64,000 bases of DNA, taken from contig NZ_CP010515.1 in assembly GCF_003431325.1 (NCBI RefSeq), forward strand, positions 1,178,001 through 1,242,000, in the 5' to 3' direction. The stretch is from Acidilobus sp. 7A (lineage in GTDB: Archaea; Thermoproteota; Thermoprotei_A; Sulfolobales; Acidilobaceae). Shown here piece after piece: positions 46,278 to 51,191 of the stretch. A program made the position numbers and the translations under genes. The first letter of the stretch is position 1, and each line of letters opens with the position of its first letter. The notes under the pieces were generated by a model, which saw only the letters and a program-made list of their open reading frames with translations, was not told where the DNA came from and did not search any database.

Positions 46278-46790
46278 TTAGCCTTGTAGTATCTGCTTTA
46301 TCTTATCAAGGCTCTCCTTCAGCTTGCCGTTCTCGGCCGTTAGCTGCTCCACCTGCCTCTTTAGGTCGTTTATTTGCCCCTCATACATTTCCTTGCACCT
46401 CTCCTCATTTATATATGGAGCTATATTCACACTGTCAAACACTAGCTTCTTCTCAGCCTCGTCGAAGTGAAGGGTAACAGTTATCCTAACAAGGTCAAGC
46501 TTGCTGAGCTTCCTCTTCTCAACTATCTCATGGTAGAGCTCCTTGTTGAGCTGGGCTATGTCCCTTATAATGACGTCCTTCGGAATGTACTTGCCCAGTG
46601 CTACGAGGGCCACCCTCCTAAGCTTGTCGGCGTACCTCGCGGCTATTATGACACCCGTCGATATCTGGTACTTGTTAGCGCCTAGCACGGAGCCCCCGGC
46701 TACTGTCACCTCGTACTCCTCGGCCCTCTCGAGGTCCCTGGACACGCTCTCGTCGTGAGAGGGCCCTTCGGCGCTCACATGACCCACCAC
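46278..46790 (-). CDS. Conserved crenarchaeal protein, DUF2258-like
   Basis: 170-residue protein. Central ANKYQISTGVIIAARYADKLRRVALVALGKYIPKDVIIRDIAQLNKELYHEI resembles a small uncharacterised crenarchaeal family (DUF2258 type, from memory; weak). C-terminal 35 residues form a coiled coil (MYEGQINDLKRQVEQLTAENGKLKESLDKIKQIL) with leucine heptads, suggesting dimerisation. Its upstream neighbour, 32 bp away and on the same strand, is the threonine-synthase/winged-helix protein, and the two may be co-transcribed. Function unknown. Confidence 0.5.
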   Translation of the reverse strand: MVGHVSAEGPSHDESVSRDLERAEEYEVTVAGGSVLGANKYQISTGVIIAARYADKLRRVALVALGKYIPKDVIIRDIAQLNKELYHEIVEKRKLSKLDLVRITVTLHFDEAEKKLVFDSVNIAPYINEERCKEMYEGQINDLKRQVEQLTAENGKLKESLDKIKQILQG

Positions 46791-46822: not shown

Positions 46823-47953
46823 TTATGTGTTGAAGTTTTGCTCGCCAGCCTGACCGTCACAGAGCTCATATACCTTAACCTTTCTGCTGCCCTCCATTGT
46901 ATAACGCGCGCAGACCGTGCCACTTAGCTCAAGGGACCTCAGGGCCGAGTAGACCCCCCTTAGGGTGTATTGCGACATCTCCTTCCATATGCTATAGGCT
47001 GTGAGACCTCCCCTCCTCGACAGCAGGCTTATTATCATGCTTCTGAGCATCGTTGTGCCCCCTACCTTTGTCTTCCTCTGTAGCGACCTCCTGAGGCTCC
47101 CAGTGATTAGTGCGATGCCGTTACCTTCGACGGCGGCATATGAGTACGCCGAGGCCGCCAGGAACTTCATGTAAATGCCCCTTTTGGCCAGCCTTACCTG
47201 CGACTTCACGACCTCCTCCGGCTCTATCTCAGCTAACCTGATAGACTTTGACAGGCCGAGCATTGATGGCGTGGGGCTCCCCTTCACTATTACAGCGACT
47301 ACCTCAAGAGGGGGCGAGCCAACAAGCTCGTCTAGGCCTTCTGCGACTGAGATTGCTAAAAGCCCTGATGAGGAGGGCACGTAAACGGCCTCCGCCCTCG
47401 GCTGCGCCTCAGCGAGCTCAAAGGCTATAGTCTTAAGGCCCTCGACGCTAAGGGGGTTCTCGTAGTAGAGGTCTGGGGCGGCGTCAAACTCTATGGAGCC
47501 TCCTAAGGACGCTATTTCCACCACATCATATGGGTCGAGGCTCTGGGGGTCTGCCACAACCGAGATGGCAGAGCCCGCCAGTCTGGCGTAAAAGGCCATA
47601 GAGTAGGCGAAGTCGCTCTCGTACCTGACCCTGTAGATATCCCTGACTATGTTGCTCACGACAGCCGAGGAGGCCCTGTCAGCGTAGCTCCCAGTTGGGT
47701 TCCTGGTCTCCAGCTTGCTCATGACCTCGCCTATCTTCACAAGTGGGGTCAGGCCTTCGCCGTAGCTTACAACTCTCGCTGGCTTTACTGCCATCATATT
47801 GACGTAGCGCCACATGCTGGCGTAGCCGCTATTGACGTCGAGCCTAACTTCATGACACTTGAACATGAGCGGCGACCCGCACCGAGGGCAGCGCATCATG
47901 TTATGATCATCTGAAACAAATCCGCACCTGGGACAGCGGAGCTCGCACCTCAT
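46823..47953 (-). CDS. Threonine-synthase-like protein with zinc ribbon, no PLP lysine, C-terminal winged helix
   Basis: 376 residues. N-terminal zinc ribbon (CPRC and CPRC; Cys 7/10 and 22/25). Then a threonine-synthase fold: LTPLVKIGEV, and the PLP motif position NPTGSYADR, where Ala 91 replaces the Lys of the usual SFKDRG. VPSSSGLLAISVAEGL and GIALITGSL match later parts. From residue about 295 to 365 comes a winged-helix domain (RSMIISLLSRRGGLTAYSIWKEMSQYTLRGVYSALRSLELSGTV). It can hardly bind PLP covalently, so a ligand-sensing transcription factor is likely. It diverges from the acyl-CoA synthetase gene at 48081. ATG start. Confidence 0.65.
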   Translation of the reverse strand: MRCELRCPRCGFVSDDHNMMRCPRCGSPLMFKCHEVRLDVNSGYASMWRYVNMMAVKPARVVSYGEGLTPLVKIGEVMSKLETRNPTGSYADRASSAVVSNIVRDIYRVRYESDFAYSMAFYARLAGSAISVVADPQSLDPYDVVEIASLGGSIEFDAAPDLYYENPLSVEGLKTIAFELAEAQPRAEAVYVPSSSGLLAISVAEGLDELVGSPPLEVVAVIVKGSPTPSMLGLSKSIRLAEIEPEEVVKSQVRLAKRGIYMKFLAASAYSYAAVEGNGIALITGSLRRSLQRKTKVGGTTMLRSMIISLLSRRGGLTAYSIWKEMSQYTLRGVYSALRSLELSGTVCARYTMEGSRKVKVYELCDGQAGEQNFNT

Positions 47954-48017
47954 CAGGGCGCTACCTCCTGCTGCGACGTCGGCTAGCCCTTAATGCTTGT
48001 ACATGCTGTAGACATTA

Positions 48018-48035
48018 ATATATACATTCATGAAT
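48018..48035. promoter_or_regulatory. Divergent promoter/operator between regulator-like gene and acyl-CoA synthetase
   Basis: TATATA-like ATTAATATATAC (48014-48025) and the perfect 10-bp palindrome ATTCATGAAT (48026-48035). They sit midway in the 127-bp divergent gap before the ATG at 48081. Another short palindromic core, TACA-TGC-TGTA, is at 48000-48010. Confidence 0.45.
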
Positions 48036-48080
48036 ATAGTGTAGAAATTCTGGCCCACCATAAGTTTAATGTGTGAGATT

Positions 48081-50063
48081 ATGTCAACTGACGGAATAGG
48101 GGGTAAGGCAATACTGATCCCCCCGCAGGTCTCCTACCTAATCGCCCAGGCCGAGAAGGACCCCACAGCCTTCTGGGAGTCTGTTGCAAAGGAGGAGACA
48201 AACCTAATCTACTGGAAGAGAACGTGGGACAAGGCGTTTGAGTGGGAGCCAGGGAAGCCCTACAGGTGGTTCGTAGGCGGCATAACGAACGCCCACTACA
48301 GCCACGTAGATTACCCCATCGAGAAGGGATTTGGCAACAAGGCCATTTACATCTACGAGAACGCGGAGCTCGGCGTAACCAGGACGTATACCTTCCTGCA
48401 GTTCGACGACATGGTCCGCCGCTACGCAGCTGCCATGAGGGCCCTCGGCGTGAGGAAGGGCGACAGGGTGCTCCTCTACATGCCCACCAGAGTTGAGGCC
48501 ATAGCGGTGCTTCACGCCGCCGCCAGGATAGGGGCTATCGCTACATCCGTTTACGCTGGCTTCTCAGCAATGAGCCTCAGGGATCGCATAGAGCTCACCG
48601 GGGCCAAGGTCATCTTCACGCAGGACTTCAACGCAAGAAGAGGTAAGCTGATAGACCTCAAGGGGGTGGTTGATGAGGCCCTCAGGTCAATGGAAAGGAC
48701 CACGGTTGAGAAGGTGGTGGTGCTTAAGTCTGAGTACACCGAGAAGGAGCCCCAGATGCAGGGCAACCGCGACATGCTCTTTGAGGAGTTCCTTGCAATG
48801 AGCAAGGAGGGATCGCCTGACGTTGAGTGGGTCGAGTCCAACGAGCCCCTGCTCATAACTCCCACCTCCGGCACTACCGCAAAGCCTAAGCCTGTTGTTC
48901 ACAAGCACGGCCCCTTCCAGGTCCACGTGGTCACAATGGGCAGGTGGGTCTATGACCTCGGCCCTGAGGACACGTGGTTCATAACTAGCGACGTGGGCTG
49001 GCAGGCGGGCGTCAGCTACATGGTCTGGGGCGTTCCAGTATTTGGGGCTACAAGCATTGTTTACGACGGCACCCCTGACTACCCAAGGCCTGACATGTGG
49101 TGGGATGTCATAGAGCGCAACAGGGTCACGAAGCTATGGATATCGCCCACAGGCATAAGGCTGCTGAGCAAGTACGGCACGGAGTACGCAAGGAAGCACG
49201 ATCTCTCGAGCCTGAAGGTGGTCTTCAGCGCAGGGGAGCCCCTGAACCCTGAGCCCCTGAGGTGGCTCATGAACGACGTCCTTGACGGGAGGGTGCCGGT
49301 GATAGACCACTACTGGCAGACCGAGACCGGAGGGCCAGTCGTTGGAAACCCCTACGGCATACAGATGATCCCAATAAAGCCAGGCAGCGCCGGCATACCT
49401 TTGCCTGGCATCCTAGGCATGGTAGTTAACGAGGAGACGGGACAGCCGGCGAAGCCGGGAGAGAAGGGGGTCTTCGTGGTAAGGAACCCATTCCCAGGGT
49501 ACACCTCTGAGCTCTGGCAGGACTACCAGTGGTACCTCAGGTCCTACTGGGAGGCAAGGCCGCAGCTCAAGGGCATAATATACTCCGGCGACGCAGCCAT
49601 GGTCGACGAGGACGGCTACATATGGTTCCTCGGGAGGGCTGACGACGTTATAAAGATATCAGCTCACAGGATAGGCACGTTTGAGCTTGAGAGCGCCCTG
49701 GTCTCACACCCGGCAGTCGCAGAGGCCGCAGTGATAGGCGTGCCAGACCCAGAGAGGGGGCAGGTGGCCGTTGGCTTTGTGGTGCTCAAGGAGGGCTACA
49801 GGCCCAGCGAGGAGCTGAAGAGGGAACTCATAGAGCACGTGAAGAAGACCTTCGGCCCCATAGCGGTCTTCAAGACAATAGAGATCGTTAAGGCCCTGCC
49901 CAAGACTAGGAGCGGGAAGATAATGAGAAGGGTCATCAGGGCGGTCTACCTTAATGAGCCGCTCGGAGACGTGTCAACACTTGAGGATGAGAGCGAGGTG
50001 GAGGAGATCAAGAGAGCCATAGAGCAGTTCAAGAACGCCATGAAGGAGAGCGGCAGCGCTTGA
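48081..50063 (+). CDS. acs: Acetyl-CoA synthetase-like AMP-forming acyl-CoA ligase
   Basis: 660 residues from ATG 48081 (GTG 48069 in frame). Forms acyl-CoA from an organic acid, ATP and CoA through an acyl-adenylate. Seen: ITPTSGTTAKPKPVVHKHG (the P-loop-like adenylation motif), ITSDVGWQAGVSYMVWGVPVFGATSIVYDGTPDYP, VFSAGEPLNPEP, HYWQTETGG, YSGDAAMVDEDGYIWFLGRADDVIK, and the catalytic lysine in LPKTRSGKIMRR. The WQTE motif and length match acetyl/propionyl-CoA synthetases; 3-hydroxypropionyl-CoA synthetase is possible. Confidence 0.88.
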   Translation: MSTDGIGGKAILIPPQVSYLIAQAEKDPTAFWESVAKEETNLIYWKRTWDKAFEWEPGKPYRWFVGGITNAHYSHVDYPIEKGFGNKAIYIYENAELGVTRTYTFLQFDDMVRRYAAAMRALGVRKGDRVLLYMPTRVEAIAVLHAAARIGAIATSVYAGFSAMSLRDRIELTGAKVIFTQDFNARRGKLIDLKGVVDEALRSMERTTVEKVVVLKSEYTEKEPQMQGNRDMLFEEFLAMSKEGSPDVEWVESNEPLLITPTSGTTAKPKPVVHKHGPFQVHVVTMGRWVYDLGPEDTWFITSDVGWQAGVSYMVWGVPVFGATSIVYDGTPDYPRPDMWWDVIERNRVTKLWISPTGIRLLSKYGTEYARKHDLSSLKVVFSAGEPLNPEPLRWLMNDVLDGRVPVIDHYWQTETGGPVVGNPYGIQMIPIKPGSAGIPLPGILGMVVNEETGQPAKPGEKGVFVVRNPFPGYTSELWQDYQWYLRSYWEARPQLKGIIYSGDAAMVDEDGYIWFLGRADDVIKISAHRIGTFELESALVSHPAVAEAAVIGVPDPERGQVAVGFVVLKEGYRPSEELKRELIEHVKKTFGPIAVFKTIEIVKALPKTRSGKIMRRVIRAVYLNEPLGDVSTLEDESEVEEIKRAIEQFKNAMKESGSA

Positions 50064-50099: not shown

Positions 50100-51191
50100 T
50101 CACTTTGCAAGGCTTAGCGGCAGCGGCTTTTTTGAGGGCTTAACTATCAGCGCGTCAAACACGAACGCAAGGCCTACGAAGAAGAACGAGACATGCGCGT
50201 TAAACGGCCATAGCAGCGCCGCAATGGCCTGAGACACGTAGGGGGTAAGGTTGTATCTTCTAGCCGAGGACCAGCCCATGATGACCGGCAGCATCATGGG
50301 TACATGTATTAAGACAAACATAGTTATAATGCCCAGCGTCACGGCGTGGATTATGACGAGAAGGCCCAACTTAATGGCTACGGACACCAGTAATGTGATC
50401 CCAACGGCTAGCAGCGCCGCGAATGCAAAGACGTGACCGTAAAGGAAGTAAAGCGTGCCGCCGCGAGCTGCGGGCGAGGGCGAGGCCTTGGCCTTAGCAT
50501 AGTACCTCCTTAAGCTTCCGCCCCTGAAGGCGGGCACGGAGACTATCATCGAGGCCCCTAGGAGGGCCTCCACGAGCTTAGGCTCACCAAGTAGGGCCAG
50601 CGCTGCTGCAGCGCTTAGGAAAACAAAGGTAAGTCCTGTCAAGGCCTTTGATGATGTATCGCCAAAAGTTGAGGGGAACGTGTGGAGGGTCACCGCAAAG
50701 ATTGCGCCAACAGCCTCTATAACTATGAAGATAAGCGCCATCTGAAACAGGTCACGCACTGACGCCCCTATAATTACCAGCCCGGCCAGCGCCTGCGTGT
50801 AGCCAAGCATGGCCACAGATAGCCTGACGTCCCACCTCCTCAGGGCGTAGACAGAGAGTGAGGCCAGGGAGGCGCCAAATATTATCAAGGAGGCCCCCAG
50901 AGGGGCTGTAGGACCCCCTAGCGACGCCGCGAGGCCAGCCGCCGCGACAGCGAAGGCCAGGGCTGAGGTCAGGTACTCCAGAGCCCTGGCAGTCCTAGAG
51001 CCCCCCTTTAACGACGAGGTAGCGTAAGCCACGGCCACGCCGGCTATGAAGGTCGGCAGGACGGCCTCGAACATTAGCTTCGCGTGGTAAAGAGCCAACC
51101 CGGCCGTAACCACATAGAGGGCCGCTATGAGCTCCGCTATTGAGAGGTAGGTCAGGGTCCTGGCGGTCAGCCTCGTGAACCTCGACGGCAT
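50100..51191 (-). CDS. Polytopic membrane protein, possibly NnrS-like
   Basis: 363 residues with about 11 hydrophobic segments and few charges, resembling NnrS-like or heme-binding oxidase-related membrane proteins by the segment GLLVIIHAVTLGIITMFVLIHVPMMLPVIMGW, where His residues lie within helices. Function unknown. It begins 15 bp after the stop of the MBL gene on the same strand and so may form an operon with it. ATG start. Confidence 0.5.
   Translation of the reverse strand: MPSRFTRLTARTLTYLSIAELIAALYVVTAGLALYHAKLMFEAVLPTFIAGVAVAYATSSLKGGSRTARALEYLTSALAFAVAAAGLAASLGGPTAPLGASLIIFGASLASLSVYALRRWDVRLSVAMLGYTQALAGLVIIGASVRDLFQMALIFIVIEAVGAIFAVTLHTFPSTFGDTSSKALTGLTFVFLSAAAALALLGEPKLVEALLGASMIVSVPAFRGGSLRRYYAKAKASPSPAARGGTLYFLYGHVFAFAALLAVGITLLVSVAIKLGLLVIIHAVTLGIITMFVLIHVPMMLPVIMGWSSARRYNLTPYVSQAIAALLWPFNAHVSFFFVGLAFVFDALIVKPSKKPLPLSLAK

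Follow-up and report, generated by a model that had tools for sequence, protein, structure and literature searches.

Regulators derived from cofactor enzymes

Bacterial transcription factors of the MocR/PdxR group (GntR-type) join a PLP-enzyme fold to a winged helix and control pdxST together with genes of vitamin B6 salvage and uptake; MocR proteins are reported to be absent from Archaea (PMC5320631). Archaea, too, offer precedents for such a turn from vitamin enzyme to regulator, namely RbkR, which is listed as a bifunctional regulator and enzyme, and proteins of the ThiN type, ThiN being a domain of both repressors and enzymes (PMC8305020). The open-licence literature that we searched describes no archaeal regulator of B6 or pdxST genes, and reports neither a lysine-less, fold-type-II counterpart of MocR/PdxR nor a regulator derived from threonine synthase.

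The gene and its protein

The window, that is, the whole 64,000-nucleotide stretch analyzed here, spans positions 1178001-1242000 of the 1,539,049-bp genome of Acidilobus sp. 7A (genome G000, 99.94% complete). It contains the following gene, whose product we compared with the systems above.

46823..47953 (-): gene for the lysine-less PALP-wHTH regulator, an ORF of 376 aa with an ATG start
47864..47941 (-): N-terminal zinc ribbon, residues 5-30, with Cys7/10/22/25 invariant or nearly so in relatives
47099..47824 (-): degenerate fold-type-II (threonine-synthase-like) domain, residues 44-285, from Pfam PALP, AlphaFold and Foldseek
47681..47683 (-): codon 91 (Ala), the Schiff-base lysine position in the joint alignment, motif NPTGSYADR
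46859..47062 (-): C-terminal winged helix-turn-helix (wHTH), residues 298-365, from models and a C-terminal profile

PALP is the sole Pfam domain that scores above cut-off in this protein (58.8 bits; cut-off 35), and the best NCBIfam model, PRK05638 'threonine synthase' (NF004170), gives 97.6 bits, under its cut-off of 421. An AlphaFold model built from 51 relatives (mean pLDDT 92.7, pTM 0.90) was compared with the PDB using Foldseek; the top matches of the full model are without exception threonine synthases or further enzymes of fold type II (2zsj, E 7e-15). Modeled alone, the last 83 residues form three helices and a beta-wing (H-H-H-beta-beta, pLDDT 86), the arrangement of a PadR-like DNA-binding domain. 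In structure searches the hits of this domain model include PadR in complex with its operator DNA and further wHTH proteins, and the C-terminal profile also recovers Fur, PadR and AphA chains by sequence. Pfam PadR scores above cut-off in longer relatives only, not in the short form to which the window protein belongs.

The protein shares fold and sequence ancestry with the threonine synthase ThrC (2zsj, 1uim, 6nmx), as judged by Pfam PALP, the AlphaFold and Foldseek results and the tree described below, and its zinc ribbon is short and N-terminal, as in archaeal ThrC-like paralogs. Unlike ThrC, it has an extra C-terminal wHTH, and the NPTGSFKDR motif has Ala91 in place of the Schiff-base lysine. 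The initial annotation had already recognized the missing lysine, the zinc ribbon and the winged helix, all of which are borne out; its statement that the rest of the fold is kept is right only in part. The N1 Thr persists, but in the short form the O3' Asn is altered, and so is most of the phosphate loop. PLP chemistry is not expected of a protein without the Schiff-base lysine, nor is threonine synthesis from phosphohomoserine. Lysine-bearing fold-type-II paralogs are encoded elsewhere in the same genome, one of them with a zinc ribbon and an SFKDR motif (L002).

How far, then, does the likeness to described regulators go? Like MocR/PdxR, the window family joins a PLP-enzyme fold to a winged helix, and control of B6 genes is predicted for it here from gene linkage and an operator. 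MocR/PdxR proteins, however, have a fold-type-I aminotransferase domain preceded by an N-terminal GntR wHTH, an architecture that the window protein does not have; its family is of fold type II, with a C-terminal wHTH and an N-terminal zinc ribbon. MocR moreover retains the PLP lysine, which the window family lacks. With RbkR and regulators of the ThiR/ThiN type the family shares the principle of an archaeal cofactor-enzyme domain fused to an HTH and, as predicted here, regulating the genes of its own vitamin, but the enzyme fold and the vitamin are different, the HTH is at the opposite end and a key catalytic residue has been lost.

Distribution of the family and loss of the lysine

A profile made from 18 orthologs was run over 214 genomes of the order. 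The short form is present in 50 of these and is separated by a clear score gap from other PALP proteins (at least 198 bits, and at least 370 for intact copies, vs. at most 160 for the next class). Long relatives of 410-490 aa with the same architecture are found in the order and across the phylum. The Schiff-base column of the joint alignment holds Lys in 12 of 12 unfused paralogs and in 0 of 85 wHTH-fused members, where it is replaced mostly by A or S in the short forms and by R or a hydrophobic residue in the long forms. This is the search for the same domain order in other crenarchaea that the initial annotation had called for, and the lack of any lysine-bearing wHTH fusion among the 85 proteins supports its idea of an ex-enzyme turned DNA-binding regulator.

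In the tree, every lysine-less fusion of the order falls on one side of a single branch (SH-aLRT 94), and the short forms are a clade (99) nested among the long forms. The long forms retain most PLP contacts (O3' Asn in 30/38, first P-loop Gly in 36/38, N1 Thr/Ser in 36/38); the short forms retain the N1 Thr/Ser and one loop Gly (each 47/47), their remaining contacts being altered. Because the tree and the aligned contacts point this way, loss of the lysine and gain of the wHTH are read as one joint event in this family, and the ex-active-site pocket has probably been retained for a ligand, with less strict conservation in short forms. Binding of B6 by the short form, that of the window included, is a prediction and uncertain, because the phosphate loop and the O3' Asn are altered.

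The long form has a bearing on current annotation. Model NF004170 gives 695 bits (cut-off 421) for L054:7618-8925 (-), a lysine-less wHTH fusion with the motif SFRDR that adjoins ECF genes. Judged by such matches, NF004170/PRK05638 describes the long form of this same regulator family, and the name 'threonine synthase' given to its lysine-less matches is a probable systematic misannotation, one that RefSeq at present applies to long-form relatives.

Broken regulator copies occur at L142 (genome G129) and L141 (G123), the former next to a pdxS gene that retains an operator site. Genome G059 carries two regulator genes (L046, L048), each with its own pdxST.

Gene neighborhoods

The window's regulator gene is flanked by the following features.

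46278..46790 (-): gene for a ThermoDBP-related protein (PF10015), downstream neighbor, adjacent in 6 loci of the regulator family
48026..48035 (no strand): palindrome ATTCATGAAT, real but probably not an operator
48069..50063 (+): acetyl-CoA synthetase-like gene, divergent, probably an unrelated neighbor

The initial annotation proposed that the protein is a local repressor of the divergent gene, named there as an acyl-CoA synthetase and more closely described by Pfam (ACAS_N and AMP-binding) as acetyl-CoA synthetase-like, acting through ATTCATGAAT. The two genes do diverge with a palindrome between them. However, the synthetase gene is adjacent to the regulator in just 2 of 51 short-form loci. 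The 64-kb window contains 71 perfect palindromes of 10 bp, and ATTCATGAAT, which is one of them, is at chance level and is not seen upstream of the regulator ortholog in G003, whose locus has the same divergent gene order. Moreover, another, conserved operator exists, and we regard a local repressor of this kind as very improbable. Within the genus, the synthetase gene lies between the regulator and the next shared gene in two of four genomes and is absent there in the other two.

The ThermoDBP-related gene is not thought to be part of the regulator system. A multi-pass membrane protein gene at 50100-51191 (-) of the window (c21), for which there is no Pfam or NCBIfam match, adjoins the regulator or lies one gene off in all four genomes of the genus. 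As candidate targets, these genus-level neighbors (c21, a metallo-beta-lactamase, the ThermoDBP-related protein and an MTA phosphorylase) were rejected; they show no linkage outside Acidilobus/Caldisphaera-type genomes.

A different picture emerged when the 51 short-form loci were fetched and their neighbor genes clustered. In 30 of them pdxS and/or pdxT, identified by Pfam (SOR_SNZ 321 bits, SNO 152 bits), are directly adjacent to the regulator, and in a further one (L049) pdxS is three genes away. In the short-form locus L130 the regulator adjoins, instead of pdxST, an ECF cassette (S component PF07155, A-A', T), and the same cassette adjoins it in 7 of the 9 long-form loci of the order; further long-form/ECF pairs are L160-L166. 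Among 20 long-form loci taken from across the phylum, the regulator adjoins an ECF S component in 11 and pdxST in two.

PdxS proteins encoded in regulator-linked operons score 305-323 bits against PF01680, and unlinked archaeal PdxS proteins score higher (325-340 bits). On these scores the regulator-linked PdxS proteins are a subfamily that has diverged and that accompanies the regulator.

A palindromic operator

The upstream regions of pdxS in regulator-bearing relatives have in common the palindrome TATTGAACGTTCAATA. In 37 aligned sites it is followed by A-rich bases and, at constant spacing, a TTAWWW box; its place is thus immediately 5' of the TATA box, where it overlaps or adjoins the BRE. 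Comparison of 25 pdxS promoters showed the site, with 0-3 mismatches of 14, in 9 of 9 from regulator-bearing genomes and in 0 of 16 from others (Fisher p 5e-7). Genome-wide, YTGAACGTTCAR was found in 36 of 50 genomes with the regulator and 17 of 164 without (p 8e-17). By our own count there were 43 sites in the regulator-bearing genomes vs. 4 for a reversed control pattern, and 19 vs. about 35 in the genomes without regulator. Phylogenetic redundancy inflates the p-values of these operator tests; the presence/absence contrasts, and sites unlinked to the regulator, are the stronger evidence.

On our reading, about 39 of these 43 immediately precede pdxS, the gene of an ECF S component, a transport gene of the APC, MFS or ABC type, a class-V aminotransferase gene or the regulator gene itself. 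Sites unlinked to the regulator, whose gene is then on a different contig or at another place in the genome, precede pdxS in G033, G066, G141 and G146, the ECF S component in G043 and G114, and APC and MFS genes in G000, G007, G019 and G026. No exact site occurs in 14 of the 50 regulator-bearing genomes, several of which have versions with 1-3 mismatches. The operator was described from the short-form/pdxS context, and long forms may use another.

For four sites of the regulator-bearing group no B6 target is evident (G059 C84, the second site of G118, G125 C98 and G001 C11). The last of these, the operator-like GTTGAACGTTCAAC at G001:C11:23879, lies between a fused ABC permease gene and an SBP_bac_1 gene in a relative without pdxS, and may be due to chance or mark a further transporter. 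Exact TTGAACGTTCAA occurrences in Ignicoccus-like and other regulator-less genomes are isolated and apparently chance.

Does the regulator itself bind this palindrome? We infer that it does, because the two co-occur. A different, co-occurring regulator could be the binding protein, the window-family protein having another B6 job such as PLP storage or delivery; the pairing comes from co-occurrence only, and sites and gene share a phylogeny. That said, the protein has its own wHTH and sits in the regulated operon, and the match between gene and site at pdxS promoters is complete in both directions, so that we judge this alternative unlikely, and markedly so.

A second alternative dispenses with DNA binding altogether. 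Winged-helix folds sometimes mediate protein contacts, and with pdxST in the same operon in many genomes the protein might be a pseudoenzyme that serves PdxST or ThrC, for instance as a chaperone or an allosteric subunit. Against this, the regulator is retained, always with its wHTH, in genomes without pdxST, its presence predicts a palindromic site at promoters, and that site stands at a fixed distance from the TATA box. We give such a non-DNA-binding role hardly any credence.

Predicted targets in the Acidilobus genome

The window's regulator shows no linkage to B6 genes; a role in B6 supply is ascribed to it because of its orthology and the sites found genome-wide. Genome-wide searches showed that both pdxS and the PF07155 S component are absent from this genome. 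It has exactly two operator sites, at 794223 and 792719, with the sequence CTGAACGTTCAG; a point against them is that the flanks of these Acidilobus targets are rich in GC and the TATA is weak. One site lies 5' of the gene for a permease of the APC family (G000:C1:792778-794142, -); the other is between this gene and an MFS transporter gene, just upstream of the latter. The APC permease gene is preceded by a class-V aminotransferase gene (L219:5732-6892, -; G000:C1 about 794231-795391). APC orthologs in G002, G007, G019, G026, G033 and G066 have the palindrome at the same place, exact or with few changes. In G003, G007, G019 and G026 the aminotransferase gene is followed by the site and then by the MFS transporter gene; G001 has a site before the aminotransferase gene as well.

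These sites fall where other B6 genes are missing. Among 46 relatives that are at least 90% complete, 16 have pdxS only, 20 the ECF S component only, four both and six neither; pdxS and the S component thus tend to be mutually exclusive. The six with neither (G000, G001, G003, G007, G019, G026) are exactly the Acidilobus-/Caldisphaera-type genomes with APC/MFS sites.

The interval 47800-48100, which takes in the start of the window's regulator gene, has no TTGAACGTTCAA-like site, the best match having 6 of 14 positions mismatched, and because its own gene has no such site the regulator is probably not directly autoregulated. A regulator encoded within a pdxST operon would be.

Vitamin B6 as the probable common theme

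PdxS and PdxT make PLP. For the other recurring targets, the clues come from solved homologs. The sole credible one for the ECF S component is HmpT (4hzu_S, E 1e-8), whose Glu41 is conserved in the archaeal protein and whose His84 is replaced by Lys. The substrate that co-purified with HmpT is pyridoxamine (PMC4860826).

The class-V aminotransferase has its best solved matches in 2z9u-2z9x (E 1e-50). The deposit labels the chain aspartate aminotransferase; we take it to be the pyridoxamine-pyruvate aminotransferase of M. loti. The structure paper on that enzyme is among the works cited in PMC9309667. The archaeal protein is accordingly a candidate, by homology, for a pyridoxamine salvage enzyme, and could also be of the serine- or alanine-glyoxylate type. 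In G142 and G146 an ABC solute-binding protein (L227:2262-3635; L229:1-356), with the operator just upstream of its gene, matches ferric solute-binding proteins and P5PA, a PLP-binding solute-binding protein (PMC8427247); it is a candidate component of an archaeal ABC transporter for PLP or another form of B6. Transporters of the APC and MFS families have a wide range of substrates, which counts against assigning these members to B6. The ECF, aminotransferase and solute-binding protein clues are each weak alone; with pdxST they point to one vitamin.

The initial annotation had suggested amino acids or phosphohomoserine as ligands. In that case the protein would regulate amino-acid metabolism as a sensor of threonine, serine or phosphohomoserine, and pdxST would come under its control only as PLP demand tracks amino-acid metabolism. 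Its ancestry from threonine synthase fits this, as do an aminotransferase gene and a gene of an amino-acid permease family among the targets in the window's genome. The targets found, however, are known or putative B6 supply genes: pdxST, the HmpT-like ECF transporter, the P5PA-like solute-binding protein and the pyridoxamine-pyruvate-aminotransferase-like gene recur, and no threonine-pathway gene was found among the roughly 39 interpretable sites. An amino-acid sensor is therefore unlikely.

A probable B6-responsive transcription factor

The family, the lysine loss, the wHTH, the gene linkage, the operator and its promoter position were computed directly. A MocR/PdxR-like B6 regulon is strongly suggested by them, and we consider it quite likely that the window protein is a transcription factor of vitamin B6 supply, built on a fold-type-II PLP-enzyme scaffold, that acts at TATTGAACGTTCAATA and senses a B6 vitamer. 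In the mechanism we propose, a single event would have deprived a threonine-synthase-type fold-type-II PLP enzyme of its Schiff-base lysine and given it a C-terminal winged helix. The resulting regulator, probably a dimer, would bind the palindrome abutting the BRE/TATA of target promoters, and its ex-active site would most likely hold PLP, another B6 vitamer or a PLP-amino acid adduct, non-covalently. The bound vitamer would report B6 sufficiency, upon which the supply genes would be turned down. The predicted targets are pdxST where present and otherwise an HmpT-like ECF transporter or an ABC binding protein; in the window's genome and its Caldisphaera-type relatives they would be the APC permease and the MFS transporter beside the pyridoxamine-pyruvate-aminotransferase-like gene, transporters that we infer to carry B6.

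The initial annotation considered the protein a likely repressor. At a site next to the BRE/TATA, such as this operator, an archaeal factor may repress or activate, and the protein may do either: it could block TFB or help to recruit it. We give PLP co-repression a slight edge over activation by the apo form.

Implications

On balance we lean towards a wider reading, in which a non-catalytic B6 sensor fused to a wHTH evolved once and became a general B6 regulator of many Thermoproteota, its operator exposing unrecognized B6 uptake systems (APC, MFS, HmpT-like ECF and P5PA-like ABC) as well as archaeal pyridoxamine salvage. This would be a second, independent PLP-enzyme fold turned transcription factor, here without the lysine that holds PLP, and it raises the question of how a cofactor is sensed without a covalent anchor. 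For most prokaryotes, the B6 transporters are acknowledged to be a gap in knowledge (PMC9997740). An operator common to the candidate transporters would expose several of them at once, in cultivable thermophiles.
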